Source of the DNA: an uncultured Hyphomicrobiales bacterium
Lineage (GTDB): Bacteria; Pseudomonadota; Alphaproteobacteria; Rhizobiales; Beijerinckiaceae
Direction: 5' to 3'
Assembly: GCA_903851305.1 (NCBI GenBank)
Contig: CAINNX010000179.1
Span: 1 to 43,990 of the forward strand
Length of the DNA: 43,990 nt
This document shows positions 17,308 to 43,536 of this stretch, piece by piece. The notes beneath the pieces are model-generated. The model ran no database searches. It saw only the letters and a program-made list of their open reading frames with translations, and was not told the DNA's origin. Numbering within the stretch: position 1 is the first letter of the stretch; each line of letters opens with the position of its first letter. A program made the position numbers and the translations under genes.

Positions 17308-17311
17308 GGCC

Positions 17312-28525: not shown

Positions 28526-29740
28526 ATGGGGATGCCTTCATCAGCAGGAGCTGCGGCGCAGTTTATGCGCCGACTTTCTTTGTTCTGTGGCAAGCTGCTG
28601 CGCGGCGCAAATCGATTGTCTTTTTCTTTGTCCGCTCTTCTTTGTCTGAGTAGCGGGGCTTGGGCGCAAGGTGTCGGGCCCATTACCATTGCCAAGCAAG
28701 GCTATTTCTTTGTTGGTGGCAAATATGTCGAAAAGGCAGGCGAGCAAGTACTCGCTGGTCACGCCTATATCGAATATCAAATCCCGCAAAATCGTACGCA
28801 ACCCTATCCGATTGTGATGATCCACGGCTGTTGCTCGGCAGGATCGAGCTGGAATGGCACACCGGATGGACGTGATGGTTGGGTACAATATTTCCTCTCC
28901 AAAGGTTATGCGGTTTACGTCATGGATCAGGTCGGGCGTGGCCGCGCTGCCTATGTCGATAGCGTTTATGGCCAGAACAATCCGAAAGCTCCGAAATTTG
29001 TTGAACGCGAATTCATCGCCTATGAGCGTTACAATCTCTTCCCGCAGGCCAAGTTGCATACGCAATGGCCGGGTGAGGGCGTGGTGGGTGATCCCCTGTT
29101 CGACCAATTCCAGGCGATGATGGAGCCTGATTTCAAAGATCGCACTTTGCGCGAAGTTTTTAATCGTCAAGCCGGTGTGGCCCTGCTGGATAAAATCGGC
29201 CCTGCTATTTTGATGGTCCATTCACAGGCGGGTATTTATTCATGGGGCATTGCCAATGATCGCCCGCAATTGGTCAAAGGAATGATCATGATTGAAGCGG
29301 CGGGTTCCGCTTTTCATGAAGTGGCTTTGAAGGGGCCGCCTGACTGGTTCAAAGACGAAGGGCTCAGCAAGCCTTGGGGATTTACGCGTACCCCCGTCGA
29401 TTTCGATCCGCCTCTCGCAAAAGATCAATATCCGGATATAGAGCAGCAGGCGAAGGCCGATGCGCCCGATCTCGCGCTATGCTGGCGACAAAAAGAACCG
29501 GCGCGCAAGTTGTCGAGGCTGACTGGAATTCCAATCATGCTCGTACATGGCGAAGGCTCTTTTGCCATGCCGACGGCGCATTGCGGATCTGCTTTTCTGA
29601 CCCAAGCAGGCGTTCCGAATGATTTTGTAAAACTTGCTGATCTCGGAATTCGTGGCAATGGCCATTTTATGATGCTTGAGAAAAACAATCTCGAGGTCGC
29701 GGCTGTCATTGCCGATTGGCTGTCCAAAAAGGTCAAGTAA
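28526..29740 (+). CDS. Exported alpha/beta-hydrolase
   Basis: Up to 404 residues. A signal peptide probably ends at SSGAWA (about residue 47). The alpha/beta-hydrolase core shows the oxyanion region MIHGCCSAGSSW (98-109), the nucleophile elbow VHSQAG with Ser233, and a C-terminal GNGHFMM with the catalytic His; the acid residue is not certain. Expected substrates are esters or lactones in the periplasm. The start is either ATG 28526 or 28532 (G-rich ribosome site GGGGG), and ATG 28565 would give a more usual signal length. It heads a rightward operon: hydrolase, amidohydrolase (54 bases on), racemase-superfamily protein, Bug. It is divergent from the GMC dehydrogenase. Confidence 0.87.
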   Translation: MGMPSSAGAAAQFMRRLSLFCGKLLRGANRLSFSLSALLCLSSGAWAQGVGPITIAKQGYFFVGGKYVEKAGEQVLAGHAYIEYQIPQNRTQPYPIVMIHGCCSAGSSWNGTPDGRDGWVQYFLSKGYAVYVMDQVGRGRAAYVDSVYGQNNPKAPKFVEREFIAYERYNLFPQAKLHTQWPGEGVVGDPLFDQFQAMMEPDFKDRTLREVFNRQAGVALLDKIGPAILMVHSQAGIYSWGIANDRPQLVKGMIMIEAAGSAFHEVALKGPPDWFKDEGLSKPWGFTRTPVDFDPPLAKDQYPDIEQQAKADAPDLALCWRQKEPARKLSRLTGIPIMLVHGEGSFAMPTAHCGSAFLTQAGVPNDFVKLADLGIRGNGHFMMLEKNNLEVAAVIADWLSKKVK

Positions 29741-29794
29741 TCACTCTAAGACAAGCTGAAAAATCAAAATCAAACGCACGCGAGGGGTGTGATC

Positions 29795-31246
29795 ATGGCT
29801 AACAAGGATGATAGGGCATTTCATGAGCCGCGTGATCCTGATCGCCGCAATCTTCTGCTGGCATCCCTATTAGCCGGTGCGGCTGGATTATCCGTAGCGC
29901 CCGCACAAGCAGCCGTTGCGCCGACAGATGTCAAAAAGCTTCAAAAATCCAAACGCTATATTGTGAAAAATGCAATTATTCTAACGGTAGATTCTGCCGT
30001 CGGGGATTTTGAAAAAGCCGACATGTTGGTCGAGAATGGCAAGATCAAGGCGATTGCGCCGTCTTTGTCGGTTAGCCCAGAAACATTGGTCATCGATGGA
30101 ACCAATAGGATTCTTATTCCCGGTTTTGTGGATACGCATAGCCATTCTTACCAGGGTTTGCTGCGTGGATTGCTGCCCAATGGTGTGGTCTTGCCCGATT
30201 ATGATCGGGACATTCAAAAGAACATCACGCCTCACTACACTGCCAATGACGCTTATCAGGGTGTTTTAATCACTGCACTCGGATTTTTGGATTTGGGCAC
30301 AACGAGCATGATTGATATTTCGCAAGTGTCGCATTCACGTGCACATGTCGAAGCCAATATTCAAGCACTCAAAGATTCTGGCATGCGCTCGGTTTTTGCC
30401 ATGTCACGCGGTATAGGCGCGGACTCGCAATATCCCGATGGCATGAATAGTCTTCTGCCGGCATATTTCTCTTCACAAGATCAGCTCCTCACGCCCGCAT
30501 TGGCGGTTTCCGTTGAAAAAGATACGTTTTTATCGGCTCGCCAATATGGGCTCAAAGCTGTTTTGCATATTCGCGTTAATTCAGCACCGCTAATCGCTCT
30601 GTCGCAGGCAGGTGTTCTGCGAGACGGTGATTTGTTTGTCCATTGCGCGCATTTGAATAAGGACGCTTGGAAAATCATCCATGATACAGGCGGGCGCACA
30701 TCTCATTCGCCAGTGGTCGAAATGGCAATGGGGCATGGCTATCCGGCCATTCAGGACGCGCTAGATGCAGGCGCGCGTCCAAGCCTGAGCTGCGATCATG
30801 CAGCCACAGTTGGTATGGATATGTTTGGCATGATGCGCGCAGTCTTTGACATTCAGCGGCTCGCGATCCAGCAACGCCAACGCAATGGTGAGAAAGAGAC
30901 GCAAAAGCTCCTCACCTGCAGGGAAGTCTTGCAATTTGCCACACTCAATGGCGCGCGTGCGGCTGGCCTTGATCACAAGATTGGATCGCTGACGCCGGGC
31001 AAAGATGCAGATTTTCTCATGTTGCGGGCCGATGATCTGAGCATCTGGCCCTTGAACAATGCCTATTCTGCAGCCGTCAATCTCATGTCGGCTGGACACA
31101 TTGAGGGTGTCTTTGTCGCGGGCAAAGTGAAGAAGTGGCAAGGACGGCTTATTGATGTCGATAAGGCAAAAGTTCTCCGTGAGGTCGCGCAATCACGCGA
31201 CAATGTTTTACAGAAAGCAAAATTTGCGATTGGCCTGACGGCCTGA
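29795..31246 (+). CDS. Tat-exported amidohydrolase-superfamily protein (SAH/guanine deaminase-AtzA type)
   Basis: 483 residues. A twin-arginine signal (PDRRNLLLASLLAGAAGL) comes first, then a composite metallo-hydrolase fold. The metal ligands His115/His117 (DTHSHS), His258 (LHIRVN), His283 or His286 (FVHCAHL) and Asp334 (SCDHAA) are in place. The Glu usually three residues after the third His (HxxE) is Val261 here. That Glu is the acid/base in deaminases and TrzN-type hydrolases, so the reaction may differ. Family members remove amino, chloro or thio groups from heterocycles. Tat export of this class is unusual. GAGGGG lies before ATG 29795; the GTG at 29789 is less likely. The next gene starts 16 bases after the stop. 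Confidence 0.87.
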   Translation: MANKDDRAFHEPRDPDRRNLLLASLLAGAAGLSVAPAQAAVAPTDVKKLQKSKRYIVKNAIILTVDSAVGDFEKADMLVENGKIKAIAPSLSVSPETLVIDGTNRILIPGFVDTHSHSYQGLLRGLLPNGVVLPDYDRDIQKNITPHYTANDAYQGVLITALGFLDLGTTSMIDISQVSHSRAHVEANIQALKDSGMRSVFAMSRGIGADSQYPDGMNSLLPAYFSSQDQLLTPALAVSVEKDTFLSARQYGLKAVLHIRVNSAPLIALSQAGVLRDGDLFVHCAHLNKDAWKIIHDTGGRTSHSPVVEMAMGHGYPAIQDALDAGARPSLSCDHAATVGMDMFGMMRAVFDIQRLAIQQRQRNGEKETQKLLTCREVLQFATLNGARAAGLDHKIGSLTPGKDADFLMLRADDLSIWPLNNAYSAAVNLMSAGHIEGVFVAGKVKKWQGRLIDVDKAKVLREVAQSRDNVLQKAKFAIGLTA

Positions 31247-31262
31247 CCCAGAAGGAAAAAAC

Positions 31263-31997
31263 ATGCATTATACAATGTGGCGCGGTGTTGTTGGCCTTGT
31301 GAAGCCCACCCGCCGTCCCGGCTCTTTGGAAGAACTTATCCGCATGCTGCCGCAAGGCATTGGTATTGTTCCTCTGCTTTTGAATGTGCGCGAAGGCAGC
31401 CATGACGAGTTTTCTTCGGCCATTCCTTTTTATGAAAAATATGTCGCTGAATTGGCTGAACAAGGAATGGATATGATCCATCCTGGGGGCACACCGGCAT
31501 TTATGATGTTGGGCTATGATCAAGAGCGTCGAACCACGGATGCTTGGTCAGAAAAATATAAGACACCCGTTTTTACAGCCGGTCAAAACCACGTCTGCGC
31601 TTTGCGCTCGATGCACATTAAATCTTTCATTGGTGCGAGCTATTCAAAACTTCAAAACCAGATTGTTACAAAATATATGACGGAGGCTGGGTTTCATGTG
31701 AAATCAATGGAGCCGATTGACGTTCCTTTCAATAAGGCTGGGCAGATTTCGCCAGAAGAATGTTATGCCCACGTCAAAAAGCTTTTTAAGGAAGCGGGCG
31801 GTGCAGATGGTATTTACATTCAAGGTGGTGCTTGGCGTACCGAAGGTATTGTCGAAACTTTGGAAAAGGATCTGCAAGTACCAGTCATCCACGCCAATGT
31901 GGCACAGGCCTGGGAGATTATGAAGCGGTTGAGTGTGCATGAGCCTAAGTCTGGATTGGGAACTCTTTTGCGTGAGCTTCCTCCAATGGTTGAATAG
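31263..31997 (+). CDS. Asp/Glu racemase-superfamily protein (maleate isomerase/arylmalonate decarboxylase-like) lacking both Cys
   Basis: 244 residues with the two-domain racemase fold typical of maleate cis-trans isomerase and arylmalonate decarboxylase. The first active-site loop reads HPGGTPAF (73-80) where a G-C-T/S motif is expected. The second reads IQGGAW (186-191) where the other catalytic Cys would sit, so neither nucleophile is present. The remaining fold elements (TEGIVETLEKDLQVPVIHAN) are well kept, so this is not simple decay. There is no signal peptide. It lies between the amidohydrolase and a Bug receptor (8 bases on) in one operon. A Cys-less lyase/decarboxylase or binding role is possible. 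It resembles the protein at 37607 most in its second loop. Confidence 0.83.
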   Translation: MHYTMWRGVVGLVKPTRRPGSLEELIRMLPQGIGIVPLLLNVREGSHDEFSSAIPFYEKYVAELAEQGMDMIHPGGTPAFMMLGYDQERRTTDAWSEKYKTPVFTAGQNHVCALRSMHIKSFIGASYSKLQNQIVTKYMTEAGFHVKSMEPIDVPFNKAGQISPEECYAHVKKLFKEAGGADGIYIQGGAWRTEGIVETLEKDLQVPVIHANVAQAWEIMKRLSVHEPKSGLGTLLRELPPMVE

Positions 31998-32005
31998 GTT
32001 CACTC

Positions 32006-33022
32006 ATGATGCGCTCGTTTATCGTCTTCTTAATTTTGGCCTGCACACATGTCGTGTGTTTCGCACAGGAAACGCAGATCAAGACCATCAATCTCTATGT
32101 TGGGACGACGAGTGGTGGCGGCTATGATGTTTATGCGCGTGTCATGGCCCGCTATTGGGGTCGCTATTTGACAGGTCATCCCGCATTCGTCGTGAAAAAC
32201 ATGCCGGGAACGGGTGGTCTGACAATGGCCAACTATATTTATAATCAAGCGCCGCGTGATGGTTCGGAAATTGCTACCATGCAAAGCGGCGTTATTTTTG
32301 AAAAGCTTTATCACACGCTTTCGCCGGGCGGCGCTAATGCGCGTTTTGAGGCTGAGAAATTTGGCTGGATCGGCAGCGCTCTGCGCTCAACCTATGTGAC
32401 GATCACATGGCACGATTCTCCGGTCAAAAATCTGGAGGATGCTAAATATAAGGATGCAGTCCTTGGTGCATCGACGACCAGTTCGGACAATTTTCTGCTG
32501 GCAGTTCTCGGCAATAAATTACTTGGCACGAAATTTCGTATAGTGCACGGTTATCAAGGCTCAACCTCCACAGATCTCGCCATTGAGCGAGGTGAAATCA
32601 ATGGGGCGGCTGGCAAAGACTGGACCACATTGACGACATCACGCCCCGATTGGTTGAAGGATAAGAAGGTCAATATCATTGTTCAAATGGGGATGCAGAA
32701 ACATCCCTCCATTCCAAATGTGCCGTCTGCTCTTGAATTGGCAGCCAATGATGAAGATCGCGCAATGATGGAATTGGTATTTGCCAAGTTTAATTTATCT
32801 CGACCGTTTTTTGGTCCGCCTAATATGAGTTCAAAAGTCATGCAAGATTTTCGTGCGAGTTTTGCTGCGCTTGTAAAAGATAAGGAATTTTTACAGGAGG
32901 CAGAGAAGACTGGAATGGAAATTGATCCAGTTTATGGCGATGAAGCTGAGAAGCTAGTGGCACGTCTTCTTCGGACTCCAGAAACGCAGGCTCAAAAAAT
33001 GCGAGAGCTTTTGAAGTTCTGA
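32006..33022 (+). CDS. Bug/TctC-family periplasmic solute-binding receptor
   Basis: 338 residues. The signal peptide ends at about HVVCFA. The mature receptor shows VGTTSGGGYDVYAR, KNMPGTGG and RPFFGPPNM. It is the last gene of the hydrolase-amidohydrolase-racemase-Bug operon, suggesting that the product of the two periplasmic hydrolases is the ligand, delivered for cytoplasmic conversion by the racemase-superfamily protein. The decayed receptor at 171-614 is a close relative in its C-terminal half. The ribosome site is weak, so it may rely on coupling to the preceding gene. Confidence 0.92.
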   Translation: MMRSFIVFLILACTHVVCFAQETQIKTINLYVGTTSGGGYDVYARVMARYWGRYLTGHPAFVVKNMPGTGGLTMANYIYNQAPRDGSEIATMQSGVIFEKLYHTLSPGGANARFEAEKFGWIGSALRSTYVTITWHDSPVKNLEDAKYKDAVLGASTTSSDNFLLAVLGNKLLGTKFRIVHGYQGSTSTDLAIERGEINGAAGKDWTTLTTSRPDWLKDKKVNIIVQMGMQKHPSIPNVPSALELAANDEDRAMMELVFAKFNLSRPFFGPPNMSSKVMQDFRASFAALVKDKEFLQEAEKTGMEIDPVYGDEAEKLVARLLRTPETQAQKMRELLKF

Positions 33023-33128
33023 TTTTATGACGACCAAAATTGTTGCGTAAGTTTTTGTGTATGGATGACGTAAAGAATTTGTAACTTCTCATAACATATT
33101 CAGCTTTTTCTGTTTCAAGCATAATGGC

Positions 33129-33173
33129 TTGCCCACAGAAACGTGGTCCTCGCTGATATATGGCTTACGCGCC
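33129..33173 (+). mobile_element. IS3-family left-end remnant
   Basis: TGCCCACAGAAACGTGGTCC followed by TCGCTGATATATGGCTTA matches the left end of the element starting at 43919, with about 80% identity by eye. No transposase follows. The similarity fades into repeat copy C at about 33175. It is a solo end left by deletion. Bases 33023-33128, before it, hold nothing recognisable. Confidence 0.65.
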
Positions 33174-33179
33174 TTTGAG

Positions 33180-33367: not shown

Positions 33368-33520
33368 CTTTTGCGAGCCTATTTACGGCCTCAATTTCCA
33401 TCACCGCCGGCATGAAATGGGATTGCATAAGCATAGACGAAAGATGAATACCCTTGAACCTCACGGTCCGATGAAATGGCTCCAAGGAAGAGAACATATT
33501 TTTCCAAAGGGAGGGGGCTT

Positions 33521-34108
33521 GTGCGGGATTGGCGCACCAAAGCGGTCATTCGCACTTTTTGCCTCGCAATGCTTGCTATGACTTTTACGCACGCTTGGGC
33601 TGATAGCGCGCTCGAAAGTGATTTGGCGCAATGTTGGTCATGTCACGGAAAAGAAGGTCGCTCAAGTGATCGCACCATGCCCGTCATCTGGGGTCAGGGC
33701 GCTGATTACATTATGAAGCAATTGACCGACTATCGGGATGGCGGGCGCGAGAACCAGATTATGTCCTCAATGGCTGAATCCATTCCGCGCGCAAAATTAG
33801 GCGAAGCTTCGAAAATCATTTCATTGAAGCCTTGGCCCGCTTCAGCAGTGCCAACCATCAAGGAAGGTTTGCCCGATCTCGCGCAAGCTTGCGCAGCCTG
33901 TCACGGTGCAGATTTGACGGGCGCACAAACGGATGCGGGCCCCGCTCCGCGGCTTGCTGGGCAAAATGAGCTTTATCTCGCAGAGCAAATGCACGCTTTT
34001 GCAACAGGTTTGCGTGCCAATCACGCAGTTATGACGTCGATCATGCGCAATCTGGATGGGGCACAAAGGGAGGATCTTGCGCGGCAGCTCGCACATTTGG
34101 AGCCATAA
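33521..34108 (+). CDS. Periplasmic diheme cytochrome c (c4-like)
   Basis: About 195 residues. The signal peptide is MRDWRTKAVIRTFCLAMLAM…HAWA. Two heme c attachment sites follow: CWSCH at 38-42 and CAACH at 124-128, each followed by Gly. Axial Met candidates lie in PVIWGQG…MSSMAES and VMTSIMRN. The two-domain layout is that of cytochrome c4 and of the small cytochromes that accept electrons from quinoprotein or flavoprotein dehydrogenases. AAAGGGAGGGGG precedes GTG 33521, and the longer frame from ATG 33476 lacks such a site. It sits upstream of two quinoprotein-type genes and may also serve the GMC dehydrogenase at 25670, which lacks its own cytochrome. Confidence 0.88.
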   Translation: MRDWRTKAVIRTFCLAMLAMTFTHAWADSALESDLAQCWSCHGKEGRSSDRTMPVIWGQGADYIMKQLTDYRDGGRENQIMSSMAESIPRAKLGEASKIISLKPWPASAVPTIKEGLPDLAQACAACHGADLTGAQTDAGPAPRLAGQNELYLAEQMHAFATGLRANHAVMTSIMRNLDGAQREDLARQLAHLEP

Positions 34109-34168
34109 ATTTTTTGAAGATCATATCTCGTAATGGTGAGTTTCAGCGAAAACACAATGGGGAGAAAA

Positions 34169-35521
34169 ATGGACAAAAAGATTTTTTTCATGAGCGTCGC
34201 GGCGGCGGCATTTTACGCGCCTTCATTAATGGCGGCCGAAATGCTCACTGGCAGCACCGCTTTTGGTGATTGGCGAACGGATGCGCCGGGCGTAACGCGC
34301 AAGATTACGGCAACAGATGTTGCTGCGCCGCTCGCGACGCCATCCACGGCCAATCGGTCTAAAGTGGTGCCGCAGCCTGAAGGCGCCAAGCTCTTAACAA
34401 TGGAGGGTTTTTCAGTTGCACCTTTTGCAACAGATCTTCCGGGCGCGCGTGTGCTTCGCCTTGCACCTAATGGCGATATTTTCCTATCGCAGTCGCGACC
34501 AGACGGTAAGCTCTCGGTTCTGCGTCCCTCGAAAGACGGTTCCAAAGCTGAGCAGACATCCGTCTTTGCGGATGGCTTGAAGGACCCCTATGGAATTGCC
34601 TTCTATCCGCCCGGCCCCAACCCAACATGGGTTTATGTGGCGATGCAGGGCAAGGTTGTTCGCTATCCTTATAAGGCGGGAGATTTAAAAGCGACGGGAC
34701 CAGCGCAGACGATAGTTGATGATCTCATTGTTGGCCCCTCGCATTGGACACGCGATGTCGTTTTCTCTGAAGACGGAAAAACAATGTATGTCGCGGTTGG
34801 TTCGGGCAGCAATGTTGCAACAGAAACATTGGGGCCGCGACCTGCTGACATGGCTGCATTCGAAGCCAGCCACGCGGTCGGTGCAACATGGGGAAAAGAA
34901 GAATGGCGCGCTAATGTTCTGACCTACACACCGGAAGGAAAAGAGAAGAAGATTTTTGCGACCGGTATTCGCAATTGTTCAGGCATGGCTGTCCAGCCAG
35001 GAACCGGAACTTTATTCTGCGCGACCAACGAACGTGATTTGCTCGGCGATAATACTCCGCCCGATTATGTGACCAGCGTCAAGAAAGGTGGCTTCTACGG
35101 CTGGCCTTGGTTCTATATCGGCGCGCACCAGGATGATCGTCCCGAGAGCGGTCCTCGTCCGGATTTGAAGGACAAAGTGATTGTTCCTGACGTGTTGATG
35201 CAGCCACATTCTGCACCGCTGGGTTTGGCGTTCAATACGGGCTCCATGTTTCCAGCATCCATGCGCGGTGATGCTTTTGTGGCACTCCATGGTTCTTGGA
35301 ACCGGTCTTTGCACACAGGCTATAAGATTGTGCGGATGACATTCAAAAACAATGTCCCGACCGGAGAATATCAGGATTTCGTGACGGGTTTCACGGCGGG
35401 AGACGAAAATGTCTGGGGTCGTCCTGTCAGCGTTACATTCACAAAAGACGGTTCCATGCTCTTTTCCGAGGATGGAAATGGCACCGTTTATCGGGTGAGC
35501 GCAAAGACAGCATCAAAATAA
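34169..35521 (+). CDS. Periplasmic sorbosone dehydrogenase-like (PQQ-type six-blade propeller) protein
   Basis: About 450 residues. The signal peptide ends near APSLMAAE. The beta-propeller follows the L-sorbosone dehydrogenase / soluble glucose dehydrogenase family: LLTMEGFSVAPFATDLPGAR, GLKDPYGIAFYPPG, IFATGIRNCSGMAVQPGTG, GFYGWPWFYIG and ALHGSWNRS. The equivalent His and Arg residues in the family contact PQQ and the substrate aldehyde. It should oxidise an aldehyde or aldose in the periplasm. GGGGAGAAAA precedes ATG 34169. It lies 60 bases after the cytochrome gene, and a terminator follows. Confidence 0.88.
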   Translation: MDKKIFFMSVAAAAFYAPSLMAAEMLTGSTAFGDWRTDAPGVTRKITATDVAAPLATPSTANRSKVVPQPEGAKLLTMEGFSVAPFATDLPGARVLRLAPNGDIFLSQSRPDGKLSVLRPSKDGSKAEQTSVFADGLKDPYGIAFYPPGPNPTWVYVAMQGKVVRYPYKAGDLKATGPAQTIVDDLIVGPSHWTRDVVFSEDGKTMYVAVGSGSNVATETLGPRPADMAAFEASHAVGATWGKEEWRANVLTYTPEGKEKKIFATGIRNCSGMAVQPGTGTLFCATNERDLLGDNTPPDYVTSVKKGGFYGWPWFYIGAHQDDRPESGPRPDLKDKVIVPDVLMQPHSAPLGLAFNTGSMFPASMRGDAFVALHGSWNRSLHTGYKIVRMTFKNNVPTGEYQDFVTGFTAGDENVWGRPVSVTFTKDGSMLFSEDGNGTVYRVSAKTASK

Positions 35522-35570: not shown

Positions 35571-35634
35571 AAAGTGGGTCGATATATTTCAGGCATCCTC
35601 CGTGGGTGCGTTATCAAATATGGGGAAGATGATC

Positions 35635-37410
35635 ATGAAGAAAAAGCTGCTCAGTCTCGCGGCTGTTTTTCTGGGTGCGGTGTCGATGAGCGCTGTACAA
35701 GCGCAGGAGTTCCGTTCTGTCACCGATGCCATGCTTAAAAAGCCCGACAATGCCGATTGGCTGATGCTCAATCGCACTTATGACGAGCAGCGGTTTAGTC
35801 CGCTTAATCAAATCAACACCAAAAATGTTAAGCAAATGCAACTCGCCTTTGTGCGAGGCCTGCCAGCCGGCACAAATGAATCAACGCCCATCGTGCATGA
35901 TGGGGTGATGTATGTCATTGCACCGGGTGCCTCTATTCAAGCCATTGACGCTACCAATGGCGATCTCATTTGGGAGTATTTTCGAGATTATCCGAAGGAG
36001 ATGGCCGAATTTATTGGAGCTCCTGCATTTTCTCGAAGCAAGAGTCTTGCCATCTATCAGGACATGGTCTATTTCACAGCGCCGGATGGTTTTGTGGTGG
36101 CAATCGATGCCAAGACAGGAAAATTGCGTTGGGAAACGAAAGTTCAAGATTATAAAGATAAGACCCAACACACAGGTGGTTTGATTGTTGCGGATGGCAA
36201 GGTGATTTCAAACCGCACCTGTGAGGCGCGTGTTGGATGTTTCATTTCTGCACTCGATGCCGCAACGGGCAAGGAAGCCTGGAAATTTTACAATACAGCA
36301 GCCGCAGGTGAGCCGGGCGGTGACACATGGGGTGATGTCGCGACAGACAAGCGTGTGGCGAGTTCGTGGGGCTTGCCAGGATCATATGATCCTGTCCGCA
36401 AGGCGCTATTCTGGGCCATCGCCAATCCCAAACCCTATACGCGCTTGAAACGTCATGGATCCTCAGCCGGCGTCTCTGACAAAGCGCCCGCAGATCTGTA
36501 CAGCAATTCGACCGTCTCCATTGACGTGGAGACCGGTAAATTGAAGTGGTATTATCAACACCTGCCGGGCGATGATTGGGACACTGATCACATCCATGAG
36601 CGAACACTTGTGCGTACGCGCATTGCTCCCGATCCGAAGTTTGTGAAGTGGATCAACCCCAAGATCAAAAAGGGAGAGGAGCGTAACGCTGTTTTTGCCG
36701 TTTCCGAGGGCGGTGGTATTTGGGCACTTGATCAAACAACGGGTGAGTTTTTGTGGGCGACCCCCTGGCCGTTGGATGTACCGAATTTCCAGATCTCAAA
36801 GATCGATGTTGAAACCGGTCGTACCTATATCAATTATGATGCTGTGTTTAAAAAAGACGGTGACAAAACGCTGACCTGTTTTTTTAACATACGCAGCTAC
36901 TGGTCGACAGCCTATTCTCCTCTGACCAATTCACTTTATATCCCCTATAATGATGCCTGTATGGAAGGGACCGCGCTGACTGAGAACGCCATTGGCTTCA
37001 GCAAGCGTAATGGTGTCATGCGGCCGGGTATTGACCCGAACACTTTCCTTGGCATTTCCAAGGTCAATTTGAGCACGGGTGAAATCAAGCGTATCTATTC
37101 ACAAGCAGCACCGGGCAATGGTTCGGCCCTGGTCACCGGCGGAGGGGTTCTTTTCTGGGGCGATATGAATCGGCGCTTTCATGCATTCGATGCCAATGAT
37201 GGCAAAGTGCTATGGGAGGTGCCGTTGGGTGGCATGATTGAAACCAGCACAATCACTTATGCCGTCAAAGGTCGGCAATATGTTGCTGTCATGACGGGTG
37301 ATGGCCAGTCTGGTTCAGCTGGCCCCCTTGGTATGGCGAAGACCTTCAAGCCGCCACGGGGGCAGAATGCCATTTACGTCTTTGCGTTACCTCAGACAAA
37401 GACTAACTAA
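35635..37410 (+). CDS. PQQ-dependent alcohol dehydrogenase (quinoprotein, methanol/ethanol family), lanthanide-type active site
   Basis: About 591 residues with a signal peptide ending at VQAQ. It is an eight-blade propeller with repeated tryptophan-docking motifs (DATNGDLIWEY, DAKTGKLRWET, DAATGKEAWKF, DVETGKLKWYY). Likely active-site residues are Glu198 (CEARVG), Asn264 (ANPKPY) and Asp316 in DDWDTD. Asp318, two residues after the catalytic Asp, is the extra ligand seen in lanthanide-dependent XoxF/ExaF/PedH enzymes and absent from calcium enzymes. The vicinal Cys-Cys that stacks on PQQ in classical members is missing (EFIGAPAFSR instead). There is no heme domain, so electrons should go to the cytochrome at 33521. 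GGGGAAG precedes ATG 35635. No pqq biosynthesis genes lie in the window. Confidence 0.88.
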   Translation: MKKKLLSLAAVFLGAVSMSAVQAQEFRSVTDAMLKKPDNADWLMLNRTYDEQRFSPLNQINTKNVKQMQLAFVRGLPAGTNESTPIVHDGVMYVIAPGASIQAIDATNGDLIWEYFRDYPKEMAEFIGAPAFSRSKSLAIYQDMVYFTAPDGFVVAIDAKTGKLRWETKVQDYKDKTQHTGGLIVADGKVISNRTCEARVGCFISALDAATGKEAWKFYNTAAAGEPGGDTWGDVATDKRVASSWGLPGSYDPVRKALFWAIANPKPYTRLKRHGSSAGVSDKAPADLYSNSTVSIDVETGKLKWYYQHLPGDDWDTDHIHERTLVRTRIAPDPKFVKWINPKIKKGEERNAVFAVSEGGGIWALDQTTGEFLWATPWPLDVPNFQISKIDVETGRTYINYDAVFKKDGDKTLTCFFNIRSYWSTAYSPLTNSLYIPYNDACMEGTALTENAIGFSKRNGVMRPGIDPNTFLGISKVNLSTGEIKRIYSQAAPGNGSALVTGGGVLFWGDMNRRFHAFDANDGKVLWEVPLGGMIETSTITYAVKGRQYVAVMTGDGQSGSAGPLGMAKTFKPPRGQNAIYVFALPQTKTN

Positions 37411-37437
37411 CAATTCGCGATCTGTGCTGAAAAACAG

Positions 37438-37481: not shown

Positions 37482-37606
37482 ATTGGGCAAAATAGTTTTA
37501 AATTACTTGCATTAAATCAGGCTCAAAGAGTTTGAGGCTCATGACATGGGCGCTTTCATTTTTGATGGAGTATCTGTTGCACTTTATCTTTAGTAGTTTT
37601 GATCTC

Positions 37607-38347
37607 TCAGGGGAGCGCAAGCAAACGACTATGGCCGGTTTGCGGGGTCCACGCATTGAGCATCTGTAGAGCTGTTCGGATGACAGCAGCTTGATTGCAA
37701 ATCACGGGTTTTCCGAATTCTTTCTCAAGTTGCACCGCGACTGGTTCCGCAATCCAAGATCCACCACCGATATAAACCGCATCACAATCCGGATTTTGGA
37801 GAAATGCTTTTTTGCCGAGTTCGTAGGCAAGATGCATGTGATCGGACGACTTAATCTTATGAAAGTCGACCGGCGCAAGTTCATTGACGGCCTTGCCGAC
37901 AATATGTGATCCGCCGCGCGCGAAAAACTGATCGAGGCATGCATTCATCTCGTCCGTCCATTTATTTGCGACGGCAATCTTCTTTGCCCCGAGATCTTTT
38001 GCTGATTTTACGACAGAGATAACGGTTGAGGTCACGGGAAGGCCCGACAAAGTGCGAATGTGGTCGAGTAAGCGATCATGAGCATCAATGCCAATCAGGA
38101 TAGGCAATGGCACGCCATTCTGGATGATCATGTCGACGTCGCGGTCCAACAGCATCTGGACATATTTATCGACCGGAGAGAAGACGCGCTCGACATCGTT
38201 TTTCGAGAATTCTTTCAAGCCGACGCCGACCATCACTTCCATGACGCCTTTTGGCGCTAAACGATAAAATTCATAGGCGTGATTATCAACGATTTGCCCG
38301 GGAACGAGGCAACCGAGTTTATATTTTGGCGCAAAATCTTCGAACAT
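37607..38347 (-). CDS. Asp/Glu racemase-superfamily protein (arylmalonate decarboxylase-like) lacking both Cys
   Basis: About 246 residues with the two-lobed racemase fold. The first loop reads QNGVPLP (76-82) and the second YIGGGSW (192-198), so both positions normally held by Cys are Gly-rich and Cys-free. The second loop's GG-small-Trp pattern (GGSW) is shared with GGAW of the protein at 31263, suggesting a distinct subfamily rather than independent decay. Downstream elements (AVQLEKEFGKPVICNQAAV) are normal for the fold. GGGAG lies 6 bases before ATG 38347. It is second in a leftward pair with another racemase-superfamily gene and divergent from a Bug/hydrolase operon. Function unknown. 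Confidence 0.83.
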   Translation of the reverse strand: MFEDFAPKYKLGCLVPGQIVDNHAYEFYRLAPKGVMEVMVGVGLKEFSKNDVERVFSPVDKYVQMLLDRDVDMIIQNGVPLPILIGIDAHDRLLDHIRTLSGLPVTSTVISVVKSAKDLGAKKIAVANKWTDEMNACLDQFFARGGSHIVGKAVNELAPVDFHKIKSSDHMHLAYELGKKAFLQNPDCDAVYIGGGSWIAEPVAVQLEKEFGKPVICNQAAVIRTALQMLNAWTPQTGHSRLLALP

Positions 38348-38387
38348 ATCGTCTCCCGTTTTCGTTTCTCGCAAACAGCCCGATGGT

Positions 38388-39161
38388 TTATTTGAAGCCT
38401 TCATTGAAATCTGCGCTTTTCAATTTCGCGCGCGGATAGGTGAGGTTACTTTGCGTCATTCCGAAGCGGACGCACATTTCAGCCATGGCAATGGAGCAGG
38501 CCTTGGTGTTGAGAACCTGCACGCCTGTTTCGCGCGCGAGATCGTCAGGATCGACAACATAAGGAATGAGCGCTCCGCCAAGTGGCAGGATGATCTCTGC
38601 GCCGCGATCGACCATAGATCTGATCAGTGTCGCTGTTTTGTCGAATATCTCATCCTTGCGTTGCTGGACGCCGCGATAGATGTCGATGGGGACTATATCA
38701 GTCACAAATCTTTCGAGGCCATAGGCGCGCAGAATGCGTCGTGTATAGGGCACATGTGTCTTGAGGGGCACTGTGACACCAACGCGATCTGCAAGGGTAA
38801 GTGCAACATGCATTGTTGCCCGAAGGGGGCCTATAACTGGGATATTGACCGCAAGACGTGCACCATCGACGCCTGGATCGAATGTATTGCTCGATACAAC
38901 CGCGTCATAACCGTTTTCTGATGCCCAGAAGATTTTGGCAATGATCGAGGGTGCCTCAAGAATATGATGCAATCCGTTCAGCGCATCTTGTGAGCCGATG
39001 ACGTCCTTGACGGAGGCGCCAGCGAAATTGTCGGGAAAGCCGAGTTCGATGGTCGTTCCCGGAGAAGCATAGGAATTCAGCTGACGCGTGATTTTTTCGA
39101 TATCGTAATTCGGCTTCGACTTGGCAGTCAGAGGAGCTTGGTTGATGACCATAATTTTCAT
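38388..39161 (-). CDS. Hydantoin racemase-like protein lacking both Cys
   Basis: 257 residues. The layout is that of hydantoin/Asp-Glu racemases: an N-terminal nucleotide-fold-like lobe (IMVINQAP), then VVSSNTFDPGVDGARLAV (88-105), where hydantoin racemases have Cys in an ACFxDPG context, then VIGPLRATMHVALTLADRVGVTV. The second active loop is IILPLGGALIP (190-200), where Cys is expected after a Gly. Neither Cys is present. It therefore cannot use the normal two-base racemisation mechanism. GGGGAGGACACA precedes the ATG. It is the first gene of the leftward pair, divergent from the Bug gene at 39423. No signal peptide is seen. Confidence 0.82.
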   Translation of the reverse strand: MKIMVINQAPLTAKSKPNYDIEKITRQLNSYASPGTTIELGFPDNFAGASVKDVIGSQDALNGLHHILEAPSIIAKIFWASENGYDAVVSSNTFDPGVDGARLAVNIPVIGPLRATMHVALTLADRVGVTVPLKTHVPYTRRILRAYGLERFVTDIVPIDIYRGVQQRKDEIFDKTATLIRSMVDRGAEIILPLGGALIPYVVDPDDLARETGVQVLNTKACSIAMAEMCVRFGMTQSNLTYPRAKLKSADFNEGFK

Positions 39162-39422
39162 TGTGTCCTCCCCGACGAATCGGCACGTCTTGCTGGCGGG
39201 TTTGCTTCAAGATCATTGAACGCGCATGCCATGAGCGCAAGTCGGCTTTTGCCGAGCTATCGCCAGAAATATTTTGCAAGTGCGAACTGAAGGATTAGGA
39301 AAAAGTCATAATACTGTCGCTGCAACGGGTACTTTCCACCTGCCGAACTGGCTGATAGCCTCAAGCCAAGACAATCGCGCGCATTATGCCAAGACGTATT
39401 GTCTCAAACTCTGGGGGGACCG

Positions 39423-40451
39423 ATGGCAAGGCTCGGCATGGCGCTTTTGCGTGTTCTTTCGATGGCCGTTGCCTGTAGTCCGGCAAGCCTTCAGGCTGAA
39501 GAATCCTTTTTTGAAAACCGGACCATCAACATGATCGTCAGTGGCGGCGGGGCCTATGATGCCTATGCGCGCCTGACTGCTCGTTTCATGCCGCATCATA
39601 TCAAGGGCTCGCCCAAATTCGTTGTTCAGAACTTCCCCGGCGGCGGCGGAGTTCGGGCTGCCAGCTATCTTTATAAAATAGCACCGAAAGATGGATCGAC
39701 CATTGCAGCCGTCCACGGTTCGGTTATCACAGCGCCCGTGCTGTTGCCCGATCTCGTCGATTTCGAGACCGAAAAATTCGGCTGGATCGGCAATATTACC
39801 CGCGATGTTTATATCGGCTATGTAAAAAACGAGAGCACTATTCGTAGCCTTGAAGATCTCAAGACGAAGGAGATGATTGCTGGAGCCACCGTGCTGGGCA
39901 CGGCAGGCGTCGATATGGCCGTCCTCGCGCGCGAAGTCTTTGGGCTCAAAGTGAAGCTGATTGCGGGCTACAAGAATAGCCAGGATATTAAACTTGCCAT
40001 GGATCGCGGCGAAGTGCAGGGCACGATGTCGAGTGGGTGGTTCAGCCTCAAACGCTCAAGCCTTTGGGATGATCGCAAAGTCCGCATTCTCTACCAATGG
40101 GGAAACGAGAAGAACAAGGATCTGCAAGATGTGCCCTTGTTTATGGATCTGGCGAAAGACGACAACCAGCGAGCCATGCTTCGCCTGATGGCAGTACGCG
40201 AAGAAATCTCCAAACCCTACATGACTCCTCCCGGCGTGCCGCGTGATCGCTTGCAGATTTATCGTGAAGCATTTCGCGCCATGGTGGCCGATCCTGACTT
40301 TATCAATGAAGCACGCCGACAGGCGCTCGATGTCGAAGAGCCAATGCCTGGTGAAGACTTGCAAGACCTGATCCAGCAGATTCAAGCAACGCCCAAAAGC
40401 GTCAGCTCATCACTGGTCAATCTCTTCAATGACTACAATCGGAAAAATTAG
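39423..40451 (+). CDS. Bug/TctC-family periplasmic solute-binding receptor
   Basis: About 342 residues. The signal peptide is MARLGMALLRVLSMAVACSP…LQAEE. The receptor body shows VSGGGAYDAYAR, where a stretch usually read as GxxPGGGYD is shortened, then QNFPGGGG and KPYMTPPGVPRDR. It probably binds a carboxylate. GGGGGG lies 4 bases before ATG 39423. It is followed after 34 bases by an exported alpha/beta-hydrolase and is divergent from two racemase-superfamily genes, repeating the hydrolase/racemase/Bug combination seen at 28.5-33 kb. Confidence 0.9.
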   Translation: MARLGMALLRVLSMAVACSPASLQAEESFFENRTINMIVSGGGAYDAYARLTARFMPHHIKGSPKFVVQNFPGGGGVRAASYLYKIAPKDGSTIAAVHGSVITAPVLLPDLVDFETEKFGWIGNITRDVYIGYVKNESTIRSLEDLKTKEMIAGATVLGTAGVDMAVLAREVFGLKVKLIAGYKNSQDIKLAMDRGEVQGTMSSGWFSLKRSSLWDDRKVRILYQWGNEKNKDLQDVPLFMDLAKDDNQRAMLRLMAVREEISKPYMTPPGVPRDRLQIYREAFRAMVADPDFINEARRQALDVEEPMPGEDLQDLIQQIQATPKSVSSSLVNLFNDYNRKN

Positions 40452-40485
40452 TGCGTCACAAGATACGCTAGGGATGGGAGGGAAT

Positions 40486-41349
40486 ATGAACAGATTTCTC
40501 GCTTGGTTTTGCAGCGCGATAGCAGCTTGCTTGGCCCTTCTCGCCGTTTTCATGGTGCCCGCCTCTGCCGAAGTTTCGGGCGGTCGCTTCATCGATCTTC
40601 CGGGTGTGAAGCTTTGGGTCATTGATACGGGTGGCGGTGGTGAGCCGATTATCTTGCTGCATCCGCGGACAGGACATTCCGCGATATGGGAAAAACAGAT
40701 CGCTGGTTTTGCAGCGGCAGGGTTTCGCGTGATCGCGCCTGACAAGCCGGGTGCTGGCAAGAGCATGATGCTTCCAGAGGTCAAGCCCTTTGCCTATACC
40801 GAAACATTGGATGCTCTTGTCGATCGACTGAAAATAGAGCGGTTTATCCTTCTTGGCGTTGCTGAGGGTGGCTATTTTGCTTTTGATTATGCCGCGTGGA
40901 AGCCGGACAAAGTGCGCAAACTTGTGCTTGGTGCGACCGGGCTTGGTGTTCAGGTTGATGAAGAGGGAAGTGCCTTTCGCCGCAATTCAGCCATTCCCGG
41001 TTTTTCGAAATTGCCAGCTGATGTGCGCGAACTCAGTCCGACCTATCGTGGTTTCAATCCGGAAGGTGTCCGCAGATGGCTCGAAATCGAGCATCAGGCC
41101 GCACAGATCGACGTACCACGGCATTTGCTGCGGACACCAAATACAGTCGAGAAATTAGCTACTTTGAAAATGCCGGTTCTTGTCGTGGCAGGTGATGTTG
41201 ATTTGACAACACCCTCAGGCGCCATCCGGCTTTGGGCAAAACATTTGCCGCAGCATGAATTCAAGCTCATCACCGAGGCTGGACATGCTGTTATGTGGGA
41301 GCAGCCTGAGGCTTTCAATGCAGCTGTGCTGGATTTTATCCAGCGATAA
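40486..41349 (+). CDS. Exported alpha/beta-hydrolase-fold protein with Ala at the nucleophile position
   Basis: About 287 residues. The hydrophobic N-terminus (FCSAIAACLALLAVFMVPASA) is a signal peptide. The fold is a standard alpha/beta-hydrolase: ILLHPRTGHSAIW for the oxyanion region, the elbow LLGVAEGG, then VVAGDVDLTTPS with the acid Asp and EAGHAVMWEQP with the His. The nucleophile elbow G-x-S-x-G is GVAEG (124-128), with Ala126 in place of Ser, Asp or Cys. The Asp and His are retained, so a simple pseudogene is unlikely. It may be a binding protein or use another mechanism. GGGAGGGAAT precedes ATG 40486. It is convergent with the LVIVD gene with a 20-base gap. Confidence 0.85.
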   Translation: MNRFLAWFCSAIAACLALLAVFMVPASAEVSGGRFIDLPGVKLWVIDTGGGGEPIILLHPRTGHSAIWEKQIAGFAAAGFRVIAPDKPGAGKSMMLPEVKPFAYTETLDALVDRLKIERFILLGVAEGGYFAFDYAAWKPDKVRKLVLGATGLGVQVDEEGSAFRRNSAIPGFSKLPADVRELSPTYRGFNPEGVRRWLEIEHQAAQIDVPRHLLRTPNTVEKLATLKMPVLVVAGDVDLTTPSGAIRLWAKHLPQHEFKLITEAGHAVMWEQPEAFNAAVLDFIQR

Positions 41350-41369
41350 TAAGTTCTCCAGGCTTTTTG

Positions 41370-42878
41370 CTATTTGATCATCTGTCCCATGATGTTACGG
41401 GCTGGACCGGTCACGCGAAGGATGAACAGTCCTGAATTTGCGCGGTCAACGGCATAAACAAATCCTCGCTCGTCAACTTCAACATTATTGATTTGAACGA
41501 CGGGTACACAACCCCGGCGGAGTTTTTCATCGTCACATCTCGTGTCCGTGTTCATATTGCGCGCTGGTATGAAATAGCCGACCTCTTTTGGGGCATAGGG
41601 ATCCTGGACATCCAGCATGCGAACGCCGGCGTTGAACCACGAGAAAAACATGAGTTTGCCATAAAAGGGTTCGGCGAGGCTTTCATTGCTGGCATGCGCC
41701 CCAAACCGCCCGCCGCGATCACAGAATTTTCCAGCTCGTTCGTCAGGCTCATAAGCCGCGATGCCCATTGGATGCTTTTCATCGGTCACATCAACAAAAT
41801 AAGCCATTTGGCGCGCTTCGCCGCAGGCCGTTGTATTGTTTTCGTTCACCACCACGATGAAGTTACGGGATTGTTCGACCTTGTCCTTGGAAAAACGAGT
41901 AGGTTTCATGCCATAGAGCGGAAAGGTTGTGTGCGCCCCCATGAAGGAGGGCAAGGTCAGTCGACCGATTTCCATTTCTTGTAAGGATTCACCGGTCGGT
42001 AGTGCGGCATTGGCCAGCACCTTCTGCTTGTCAAGGATAACTGCAGCGCCATCCTTGTTGGTTCCATAACCGAAGAACACGCGATCCAAGCCATTGCGGC
42101 CGAGAATTGGCCCATGCAAAGCAGCAGGCCCAGCTTGTTCCGCGCCTTTCAAATGTTCCGGCAGACTGATCTCTCTTATTTTGCGGGGCTGTTCCGGATT
42201 GGACAGATCATACACATGTGTGACGCGCTGGATTTTCCAAATGTCACTCGTTCCCGTATGCACGAGCAAAGCAAGGCCGCTCTTACAGTCCCAATCATTT
42301 TTATGTGTGCTTTGCAGTCCGTCGATGCGCCAGACAAGTTTTGGCCTTTCAGGTGTGGTGACATCCCAGATTTGTTGGCCGGTCTCCCCGAACGTTCGTA
42401 ACAGATAAAACTTGGACGGGTCTGCGTGGGGCAATTCGCCGCCGCCACAAATGCGGGTCATTTGCGCACCACCGGTTTCGCGGCCCGGCGCTTCTTTGCC
42501 TTTGTCACCTGGAATATGAAACAACAATTTTGGTTTGCGCACGTCGGTAATATCCAGAATGGATGTTCCATTCTCTTCCTGGGTCCCGTTCAGCGGATTG
42601 GTCGCCCGCCCGCCATGATGACCGATGTAAATAATCCAGCGCTGGCCCTGTTTTTTGATGCTGGGTTGATAAGCGCTTCGGGCGGCGAGATCGTGCCATC
42701 CGATTTGCTCAAGATTTTTGGCTTCCGTTTTTTTGGAATCATAGGCATTGGCTGCGCGTTTTGCAGTTGCTGGCCCATCCGGATCAAAGTCTGGTGCATT
42801 AACACTTTTGATTTGGGCAAAAGCGGCGCTGGCGGCACATATCCATAAAGCCGCAAAGGTCAGGCGAAGAATATGCAT
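41370..42878 (-). CDS. Exported LVIVD-repeat beta-propeller protein
   Basis: 502 residues with a signal peptide (RLTFAALWICAASAAFA). It contains at least five copies of the LVIVD-type motif: LDITDVRKPKLL, WDVTTPERPKLV, YDLSNPEQPRKI, VDVTDEKHPMGI and LDVQDPYAPKEV. These form blades of a propeller. Several cysteines (CGGGE, DCKSG, ACGEA, CDRGG, RCDDEKLRRGC) suggest disulfides, consistent with a periplasmic or secreted location. The family has no established activity. GGGGACC precedes the ATG. It is downstream of, and 22 bases from, an exported isochorismatase-like gene, so the two are co-transcribed. Confidence 0.88.
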   Translation of the reverse strand: MHILRLTFAALWICAASAAFAQIKSVNAPDFDPDGPATAKRAANAYDSKKTEAKNLEQIGWHDLAARSAYQPSIKKQGQRWIIYIGHHGGRATNPLNGTQEENGTSILDITDVRKPKLLFHIPGDKGKEAPGRETGGAQMTRICGGGELPHADPSKFYLLRTFGETGQQIWDVTTPERPKLVWRIDGLQSTHKNDWDCKSGLALLVHTGTSDIWKIQRVTHVYDLSNPEQPRKIREISLPEHLKGAEQAGPAALHGPILGRNGLDRVFFGYGTNKDGAAVILDKQKVLANAALPTGESLQEMEIGRLTLPSFMGAHTTFPLYGMKPTRFSKDKVEQSRNFIVVVNENNTTACGEARQMAYFVDVTDEKHPMGIAAYEPDERAGKFCDRGGRFGAHASNESLAEPFYGKLMFFSWFNAGVRMLDVQDPYAPKEVGYFIPARNMNTDTRCDDEKLRRGCVPVVQINNVEVDERGFVYAVDRANSGLFILRVTGPARNIMGQMIK

Positions 42879-42900
42879 GGCGGTCCCCTTGCGGTGTCTA

Positions 42901-43536
42901 TCAGAAGGTAATTCTATCTAACGTTGTGAGTGTCGAGACTTCGCGGATCGTCGGGCCATTCGCGATTTCCCAGATCGAAAATTGTTCTTGATAGGCAGTG
43001 TCTGCTGGCATGGCATCAACGGGGACCACAACTTTGAAGCCGCGCCGCGATGCACCGATGGCCGTAAATAGAACCGCCCCATTTGCCGATGTACCGACCG
43101 TAATGATGGTGTTAATGCCTTTGCTTTTGAGGGTCTCGCTGAGATCATTTCTATCAAATTTATCACCGCGCACCTGAACCACGCGCTCTGTCGGGAGAGG
43201 CTTTACATTCAAAACAATGTCGCTTTCTTCCATGTTCGGCGTGTAGCTATGAACGATGGTCAAGTTGGCTGACCTAGCACGCTTCAAAAATTTTTCTACG
43301 TTGGGCATGATCGCTGCGCATCTGTTCCGCAATTCCGGCTTACAATTTTTGCTATTGAAATCCATCATAAACAAAGCTGTGGTTTTCGGATTCAATATGA
43401 CATTGTGTAGGGGCGGTGGAGGCGGCGCTTTCACGCTGTTCCATTCATCAAGCACGCCCTGTGCATGAGTTGCGGATGTAAGAGCGAGCAACAGCGTCGC
43501 AAATAGCAAACCTCTTCCTGGGTTTGGTCTCAACAT
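42901..43536 (-). CDS. Exported isochorismatase-fold (cysteine hydrolase-like) protein lacking the catalytic Cys
   Basis: 211 residues. The signal peptide is GRGLLFATLLLALTSATHAQ. The isochorismatase/nicotinamidase fold follows, with Asp59 (LFMMDF) and Lys126 (RGDKFD) of the Asp-Lys-Cys triad. The Cys loop reads TSANGAVLFTA, placing Ala154 where Cys is expected, based on alignment of the following AIGASRRGFKVVVPVDA with the family pattern. Related sequences with an ANGAV-type loop seem to form a group, so the change is probably old and functional. Periplasmic location is unusual for this normally cytoplasmic fold. It is the first gene of the leftward pair with the LVIVD protein. Confidence 0.85.
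   Translation of the reverse strand: MLRPNPGRGLLFATLLLALTSATHAQGVLDEWNSVKAPPPPPLHNVILNPKTTALFMMDFNSKNCKPELRNRCAAIMPNVEKFLKRARSANLTIVHSYTPNMEESDIVLNVKPLPTERVVQVRGDKFDRNDLSETLKSKGINTIITVGTSANGAVLFTAIGASRRGFKVVVPVDAMPADTAYQEQFSIWEIANGPTIREVSTLTTLDRITF

Follow-up and report, generated by a model that had tools for sequence, protein, structure and literature searches.

Does the run of enzyme genes at positions 28,526 to 43,536 of contig CAINNX010000179.1, from an uncultured Hyphomicrobiales bacterium, encode one undescribed pathway, or does it join modules that are inherited separately? The window (the whole stretch of DNA that was analysed, 43,990 nucleotides) is one entire contig (G000:C179) of a 2.76-Mb assembly of 186 contigs, probably a metagenome bin. 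A sequence-only reading of it had proposed a single pathway, in which periplasmic hydrolysis and oxidation would be followed by uptake through Bug (TctC-type) receptors and by conversion in the cytoplasm by racemase-fold enzymes devoid of their Cys residues. The observations behind that proposal are largely real, but the single pathway is not: the stretch is a mosaic of modules, each conserved on its own. Two of them, referred to as cassettes A and B, join Bug receptor genes to genes for hydrolase and racemase-fold proteins:

28526..29740, plus strand: ABH1 (cassette A), alpha/beta-hydrolase of the EST713 (1QLW) family with an HSQAG elbow and an intact triad Ser233-Glu257-His380; probably exported
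29789..31246, plus strand: AMH (cassette A), amidohydrolase with a twin-arginine (RR, Tat-type) leader; metal ligands kept
31263..31997, plus strand: AMD1 (cassette A), leaderless protein of the Amdase fold, with Gly188 where AMDases have Cys188, and with Trp191
32006..33022, plus strand: Bug4 (cassette A), orphan receptor resembling TctC, not detected by Pfam
37607..38404, minus strand: AMD2 (cassette B), protein of the Amdase fold, with Gly214 where AMDases have Cys188, and with Trp217
38388..39161, minus strand: RAC3 (cassette B), hydantoin/allantoin-racemase-type protein; Asn92 and Leu194 at the Cys sites; 17-nt overlap with AMD2
39399..40451, plus strand: Bug5 (cassette B), TctC/Bug receptor
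40429..41349, plus strand: ABH2 (cassette B), alpha/beta-hydrolase-fold protein with a leader; Ala145 replaces the nucleophile, Asp258 and His286 are kept

The organization of these genes was compared in a sample of 51 genomes of the genus, the window's own among them. All four genes of cassette A (ABH1-AMH-AMD1-Bug4) are present in the same order in G027:C56, with 90, 88, 95 and 83% identity, respectively. In G014:C136 the run AMH-AMD1-Bug4 is accompanied upstream by a 2Fe-2S reductase gene instead of ABH1, and in G008:C320 the same three genes stand on a contig that begins just ahead of AMH, the position of ABH1 lying beyond its end. Relatives of Bug4, AMD1 and AMH (52, 74 and 54% identity) were also found, in a changed order, in a Xanthobacteraceae metagenome-assembled genome (MAG). 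Both G027:C48 and G025:C72 contain the whole of cassette B, in which AMD2-RAC3 diverges from Bug5-ABH2 (RAC3 shares 90% identity in G025:C72); in G008:C112 its ABH2 gene is cut by the contig end, and in G014 the cassette is apparently split over C190 and C635.

The 15-kb arrangement as a whole is not a conserved unit, since in G027 cassette A, cassette B and a further pair formed by the genes LVIVD and ISOC (paired also in G027:C71) are located on three contigs among other genes. In that genome Bug4 is followed by a gene other than the cytochrome c gene CytC, and ABH2 by housekeeping genes; cassette B has its AMD2 side close to a contig end, and no copy of the sugar-dehydrogenase-like gene GSDH was retrieved at E 1e-60. 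With modules on separate contigs and different neighbours, the idea of one pathway spread over 15 kb falls. The accompanying expectation that the neighbours would be non-random survives for both cassettes, as far as the closest genomes go, and for the Bug genes beside AMD1 homologs. It does not survive for the block, and outside those genomes the link to the hydrolases is weak.

For the linkage with Bug genes, the best matches in related genomes were used as loci, the window's own being left out. A Bug gene was located within 300 b of AMD1-type genes in 15/19 loci, compared with 2/19 for ISOC-type genes taken as a control and with about 6% per locus expected by chance from the density of TctC genes (Fisher p 2e-5 against the control, although such p-values are indicative only, because the loci come from related genomes and are not independent). 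For the Bug profile, 106 Bug-like open reading frames (ORFs) were used, among them ORFs of the tested loci. A Bug-like ORF was also present in the examined flank of RAC3 in 12/19 loci. The pairing of Bug uptake with a Cys-less racemase-fold protein, which had been proposed from the window, is thus a recurrent one.

The two receptors differ in how they were recognized. Bug5 is homologous to TctC (Pfam E 8e-6, one bit below the cut-off) and has orthologs of 73–78% identity in four genomes. Bug4 gave no TctC match even at E 1; its BLAST relatives are other Bug-like ORFs, at about 30–40%, and it was tentatively assigned to the Bug proteins on the basis of these relatives and of synteny. The genome harbors 64 TctC-type matches versus 5 TctA matches, none of which is on this contig and hence beside Bug4 or Bug5 (no search was aimed at TctB). 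A similar situation, with many orphan receptors of tripartite tricarboxylate transporters (TTT) and few TctA/TctB units, is described in the accessible parts of the reports on Bordetella (PMC5812351) and Rhodoplanes sp. Z2-YC6860 (PMC5994714); the accessible part of the second contains no mention of racemase-fold partners.

The racemase-fold proteins of the cassettes have lost the residues that define their families, and the loss is shared by their closest relatives. Family members were counted at E <= 1e-15 with bit-score, length and duplicate filters, at E <= 1e-8 or at E <= 1e-5. The profiles of AMD1 and AMD2 match the uncharacterised Rhodococcus opacus protein OPAG_01669 (PDB 4ix1), arylmalonate decarboxylase (AMDase) and maleate isomerase. 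The first of these is the nearest solved structure to both proteins by sequence and to AMD1 by fold, the predicted model of AMD1 matching 4ix1 best, then AMDase, and maleate isomerase folds too (Foldseek E 5e-12 to 3dtv, TM 0.71/0.75; Pfam Amdase above its cut-off). It is known that in AMDases Cys188, embedded in the motif ILLSCGGL, acts as the proton donor, and that amd genes adjoin tctC/Bug genes, which are orphans in Betaproteobacteria, and that 61% of the amd genes have MR/MLE genes in their vicinity (Maimanakos et al. 2016, PMC4996985, in its accessible part). AMD1 and AMD2 resemble these AMDases in fold, Pfam family and Bug adjacency, but they carry Gly and Pro where AMDases have Cys188 and Ser76. 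The Cys188 site corresponds to Gly188 of AMD1 and to Gly214 of AMD2 (by alignment to 2vlb), and the two Gly residues align with each other; in the AMD1 alignment the position is Cys in the Sulfolobus protein 2dgd and Gly in 4ix1, which shares 27–28% identity with AMD1. No publication naming 4ix1 was found in the open-licence literature.

Forty-three rows and 20 chosen regions, from among the matches listed, were scored for AMD1. Eighteen of the regions have AMD1 as their best match (16 with Gly; one with Cys and one with Ser, at 24–26% identity), and the remaining two match AMD2 best (one with Gly, 51%; one with Cys, 34%, which is the gene of locus L051 again). Gly188 occurs in 41/43 rows and in 16/18 of the further ones, that is, in 57/57 rows of at least 36% identity, including 16/16 further rows of 39–53%, whereas the four remoter sequences (24–27%) have Cys or Ser. 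The picture is the same for AMD2: Gly214 is present in 28/39 rows and in one more, accounting for 29/29 of those with at least 49% identity, and the other 11/39 (ten Cys, one Ser) do not exceed 33%. As for the dioxyanion hole of AMDases (Thr75, Ser76, Tyr126, Gly189), it is not preserved as a set: the Ser76 site is Pro in 43/43 AMD1 and 39/39 AMD2 rows, the Tyr126 site is Tyr in AMD1 (41/43) and mostly Trp in AMD2 (28/39), and Gly189 is partly kept, the AMD1 positions being read from the 4ix1, 2dgd and AMD2 alignments. Other residues are well conserved, namely Tyr127 (41/43), His210 (39/43) and Trp191 (38/43) in AMD1, whose Trp217 and Glu218 are kept nearly throughout, and Trp217 in AMD2 (39/39). 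The Trp located three residues past the lost Cys is also found in the Cys-bearing AMD2 outgroup and hence probably preceded the loss.

Matches to AMD1, remote ones included, were retrieved in at least 45 of the 51 genomes of the genus (E 1e-10), and at E 1e-45 in 1/398 genomes of a phylum sample, its own. Besides the 74% relative in the Xanthobacteraceae MAG, a contig scan disclosed another of 51% identity in a Deltaproteobacteria-labelled record; the family thus extends beyond the genus. AMD2-type genes form tandem pairs, similar to two different subunits, in loci L115, L119, L120, L121 and L122, the copies being split by another ORF in L116–L118. Loci L082, L083, L051 and L052, which belong to other genomes of the genus, contain several intermixed Bug and Amdase-type genes. 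Such Bug/Amdase-type arrays suggest repeated duplication.

RAC3 shares fold and family with the allantoin/hydantoin racemases (3qvk, 5lfd), but it has lost both of their catalytic Cys sites, which in KpAllR are residues 79 and 184. The accessible text on OpaE presents the cysteines as conserved across the superfamily and names no Cys-less members. RAC3 matches are present in 18/51 genomes of the genus (E 1e-20). In the clade with at least 65% identity the first site is Asn92 in 20/20 rows and the second Leu194 in 18/18, two rows being partial; two rows of the clade have a Cys two positions upstream of the first site. Of four divergent rows (30–36%), outside these 20, three extend over the first site, and all three have Gly there. 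Judging from these replacements, AMD1, AMD2 and RAC3 would be unable to use the thiol acid/base chemistry that defines their families.

A looser pattern is shown by ISOC, the isochorismatase-fold protein encoded near the right end of the window. Its family retains Asp59 and Lys126 (22/22 each) of what we take to be an Asp-Lys-Cys triad, while the Cys site is Ala in 15 rows, Thr in three, Ser in two, Val in one and Cys in only one of the 22, so that the triad of isochorismatase-fold amidases is incomplete; in the window the residue is Ala154. In the same family (42901–43536), Cys65 is found in 22/22 and Cys73 in 21/22 rows, and it is possible that they form a disulphide in an exported protein.

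The fifth altered protein is ABH2, whose elbow reads GVAEGG, with Ala145 where the Ser, Cys or Asp of a nucleophile-bearing alpha/beta-hydrolase would be expected. The clade was cut at a gap in the scores (at least 135 bits versus no more than 84 bits) and not by identity, since relatives of 30–32% identity carry Ser or Cys. All 45 members scored have Ala (41) or Gly (4) at the elbow: 38/38 matches scoring 135 bits or more (35 Ala, 3 Gly, window included) and 7/7 relatives found by other searches (6 Ala, 1 Gly); the piece in G008:C112 ends ahead of the elbow and was left unscored. Among 12 weaker relatives (23–32% identity), sampled from well over 100 among the matches listed, 11 have Ser and one Cys. 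Two named members are carried by plasmids, Agrobacterium pTi_Tun176 (GVAAGG) and Bosea pB32-1 (GTAAGG). Where they could be read, Asp258 is present in 44/44 and His286 in 43/43 sequences, and 31 columns are invariant in 23 rows, among them Asp258, His286, E201, P204, Y206, R207 and W290-E291. In a poor predicted model (mean predicted local distance difference test, pLDDT, 58.8), residue 145 stands between strand 139–144 and helix 146–157. The family is rare outside the genus, because its profile at E 1e-45 finds 3/398 genomes of the phylum sample and 3/297 of an order sample, its own included each time; a scan of viral contigs yielded nothing beyond two 26% relatives.

Five proteins of the region, and not the six that were first counted but not named, therefore lack a canonical residue (ABH2 Ala145, AMD1 Gly188, AMD2 Gly214, RAC3 without Cys at either site, ISOC Ala154). 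The altered sites had been expected to be conserved among orthologs, which holds for ABH2, AMD1, AMD2's own clade and RAC3, and less so for ISOC with its mixed Cys site.

So many proteins without a nucleophile site in one region might also be read as pseudoenzymes, that is, as binding proteins, sensors or partner subunits of active paralogs that kept the fold and lost catalysis. The tandem AMD2-type pairs of G004, G006, G035, G036 and G064 are what hetero-oligomers would show, and the genus also harbors Ser- or Cys-bearing relatives of ABH2. Nevertheless, the putative active sites are largely conserved, as witnessed by the invariant columns of ABH2, which include Asp258 and His286, and by Tyr127, His210, Trp217 and Glu218, nearly always kept in AMD1; overall, this explanation appears rather unlikely to us.

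A different chemistry may be considered for ABH2 and its relatives, which might be cofactor-independent alpha/beta-fold oxygenases or C-C bond-cleaving enzymes, similar to HOD/AqdC, which cleave N-heteroaromatics with O2, in an aromatic-ring pathway. In the accessible part of the work on these dioxygenases, AqdC naturally carries Ala at its elbow, and HOD relies on a His-Asp base alone, its Ser being dispensable (PMC10548524); the fold, the tolerated Ala and the base are the same as in ABH2. The solved proteins closest in sequence and fold include the C-C hydrolases BphD and MhpC (the fold search having been run from the poor model), and aromatic-type genes lie nearby in relatives. However, the acid of HOD is residue 126, 25 residues past the elbow (PMC10548524, same part), whereas Asp258 is 113 residues past Ala145, behind strand 7, with no acid directly behind strand 6 in the poor model. 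Membership of ABH2 in the HOD/AqdC group was rejected on this acid position. HOD/AqdC were absent from the best 60 of 396 PDB matches, no close sequence relation being seen, and ABH2, unlike them, bears a leader. The accessible part of PMC8961568 contains nothing on the elbow. On balance, we regard an oxygenase or C-C-cleaving role as distinctly doubtful.

As to the neighbours, a flavin adenine dinucleotide (FAD) ring hydroxylase gene adjoins AMD2 in G008, an MR/MLE (enolase-superfamily) gene adjoins cassette A in G027, and the 2Fe-2S reductase gene mentioned above is found in G014; the plasmid-borne relatives of ABH2 are accompanied by an intradiol dioxygenase gene (Agrobacterium) and by enolase-type genes (Bosea). 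Taken together, these genes hint at aromatic or dicarboxylate substrates for the cassettes.

In contrast to these proteins, the two enzymes at the beginning of cassette A are intact. ABH1 matches 1qlw with E 2e-38, the Ser of the HSQxG elbow and the His being aligned; Ser233, Glu257 and His380 are kept in 5/5 sequences, with the Glu following the next strand, and these are the residues that we take to be catalytic in 1qlw. ABH1 thus shows the Ser-Glu-His triad of the EST713 carboxylesterases; it differs from them in that its gene adjoins those of an amidohydrolase, AMD1 and Bug4. AMH retains the HxH, His, His and Asp metal ligands of what is presumably the general amidohydrolase pattern: His117, His119, His260, His285, His288 and Asp336 are present in 5/5 distinct sequences (the alignment has six rows, one being the window's own gene again). 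The claim that the enzymes of the region largely lack canonical catalytic residues was therefore overstated, and ABH1, AMH and the quinoprotein PQQ, which aligns with solved enzymes, were ruled out as altered enzymes. In a similar way, the combination of hydrolase, racemase-fold protein and Bug receptor does occur twice in the window, yet the two hydrolases come from different families and only ABH2 is altered.

On these grounds, we consider it an evenly balanced proposition that the stretch is made of independent catabolic modules, two of which are small uptake-and-conversion cassettes for organic acids, in a Bug-rich Hyphomicrobiales genome. In cassette A, the exported EST713-type esterase ABH1 and the Tat-exported AMH would free an acid in the periplasm, to be captured by Bug4 and converted by cytoplasmic AMD1. 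In cassette B, the exported ABH2 would act on the substrate ahead of uptake, Bug5 would capture the acid, and AMD2 and RAC3 would act after uptake. The orphan receptors might share one of the five TctA-type membrane units of the genome. ABH2 would not form the usual acyl-enzyme; its Asp258-His286 pair may act as a general base in a non-covalent mechanism, for which AqdC and HOD offer the precedent (PMC10548524, accessible part). In AMD1, AMD2 and RAC3, the carboxylate might be held in the remaining anion site and protons moved by groups other than a thiol, Tyr127 and His210 being the candidates in AMD1.

Several points weigh against this proposal. ABH1 is not a fixed part of cassette A, as it is not beside AMH in G014. 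The hydrolase–racemase–Bug triplet is not a general rule, because within 300 b a Bug gene accompanies ABH2-type genes in 7/19 loci (p 0.06 against the control, likewise indicative) and AMD2-type genes in only 3/19. The contigs of the relatives are short, and adjacency can be read only up to their ends. Export is only likely, since it was judged by a hydrophobicity heuristic, not SignalP, and the Rossmann-type N-termini of GMC and SDR2 score high too. Moreover, the order of the steps goes beyond what is directly observed, i.e., the cassettes, their conservation in the closest genomes and the lost residues with their replacements, and the lost nucleophiles could equally mean non-enzymes.

The idea that the region merely holds ordinary, unrelated catabolic genes of a Bug-rich genome, paired through shared mobility and not through function, draws on the recombination of modules among genomes, on a recombinase-bearing element at 12–18 kb and on an insertion sequence (IS)-like end at the right edge, but it is improbable in view of the order and orientation of cassette B, kept in G027, G025 and G008, of cassette A, kept in G027, and of an AMD1–Bug adjacency far exceeding the control.

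The other genes of the region are the following:

25670..27394, minus strand: GMC oxidoreductase, a neighbour whose membership of the cassettes is not demonstrated
27398..28147, minus strand: GLD3, Gluconate_2-dh3 small subunit with an RR leader, adjoining the GMC gene
33476..34108, plus strand: CytC, cytochrome c with two CxxCH motifs
34133..35521, plus strand: GSDH, glucose/sorbosone-dehydrogenase-like protein with a leader
35602..37410, plus strand: PQQ, alcohol/sorbose-type pyrroloquinoline quinone (PQQ) dehydrogenase with a leader
41370..42878, minus strand: LVIVD, protein with a leader and no Pfam match, named by the sequence-only reading
42901..43536, minus strand: ISOC, isochorismatase-fold protein with a leader; it retains Asp59 and Lys126 and has Ala154 at the Cys site

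The order and strands of the genes and the types of their families had been recognized correctly (two hydrolases, an amidohydrolase, CytC, GSDH, PQQ, three racemase-fold proteins, two Bug receptors, ISOC, and GMC with Gluconate_2-dh3). According to the heuristic, hydrophobic N-termini are present in ABH1, AMH, Bug4, CytC, GSDH, PQQ, Bug5, ABH2, LVIVD and ISOC, and RR-type leaders in AMH and GLD3; for ABH2, the internal Met20 (at 40486) would suit a leader better as the start. At least eight proteins thus have the N-termini that the first count of exported proteins called for, their export itself being likely.

PQQ aligns over its full length with solved sorbose/alcohol dehydrogenases through the WD and Cys...GC motifs. 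Its matches to the PQQ-ADH model and, with a lower score, to the "acido-empty quinoprotein" model both fall below the cut-offs, so that pyrroloquinoline quinone is only its putative cofactor. CytC and GSDH are paired in 12/15 other loci of the genus, where, within flanks of up to 1.5 kb, PQQ was beside GSDH in 0/15 and a Bug-like ORF was present in 5/15. In L148 and L153, the CytC-GSDH pair is flanked by a Bug-like ORF and a distant AMD2-type gene (22–24% identity).

Elsewhere in the window, genes for DUF5681, a ParB-domain/N6-N4 methylase, a large serine recombinase, DUF2924 and DUF3489 lie at 12176–17887 and make up a recombinase-bearing element, probably a mobile one, within the catabolic contig. 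A second Bug-rich catabolic part, at 1187–11421, encodes a DJ-1/PfpI-type protein, three Bug receptors, a LysR regulator, a TIM-barrel isomerase-like protein, an SDR and two FAD enzymes, one of which passes the cut-off of one of two NCBIfam models for the tricarballylate dehydrogenase TcuA (PRK08274) and stays below that of the other. In megablast searches with 25.6–44.0 kb, phages gave no match and plasmids only 10 short ones, all at the right edge. There, at 43910–43990, short stretches (about 41–70 b) are matched in 10 alphaproteobacterial plasmid records and resemble the left end of an IS-like element, transposase start included, presumably of the IS3 type.

A bolder and, in our estimate, unlikely extension of the cassette reading is that one alphaproteobacterial genus evolved a nucleophile-free kit, made of a Ser-less His-Asp hydrolase family, three Cys-less racemase-fold families and orphan Bug receptors expanded by duplication, which would provide a hitherto undescribed, cofactor-free and thiol-free route for organic acids. 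A nicotinate chemistry of the NicD/NicF/NicE type, suggested by a resemblance, was also considered as a possibility. Parts of the picture are already known, such as the AMDase–Bug/TTT linkage (PMC4996985, accessible part), the alpha/beta enzymes with an Ala elbow (PMC10548524, accessible part) and the deposited AMDase-fold structure with Gly for Cys (4ix1). Among the open-licence papers listed, none was found that describes Cys-less racemase-fold clades in a conserved pairing with orphan Bug receptors, or the adjoining Ser-less ABH2 clade.

According to the accessible part of PMC11452294, there are many orphan Bug receptors and most of them lack an assigned function; a conserved pair formed by a receptor gene and a putative enzyme gene provides each of them with a testable partner. 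A Ser-less clade that keeps Asp and His, together with Cys-less Amdase and racemase clades, would represent natural examples of two well-studied folds shifting their chemistry.

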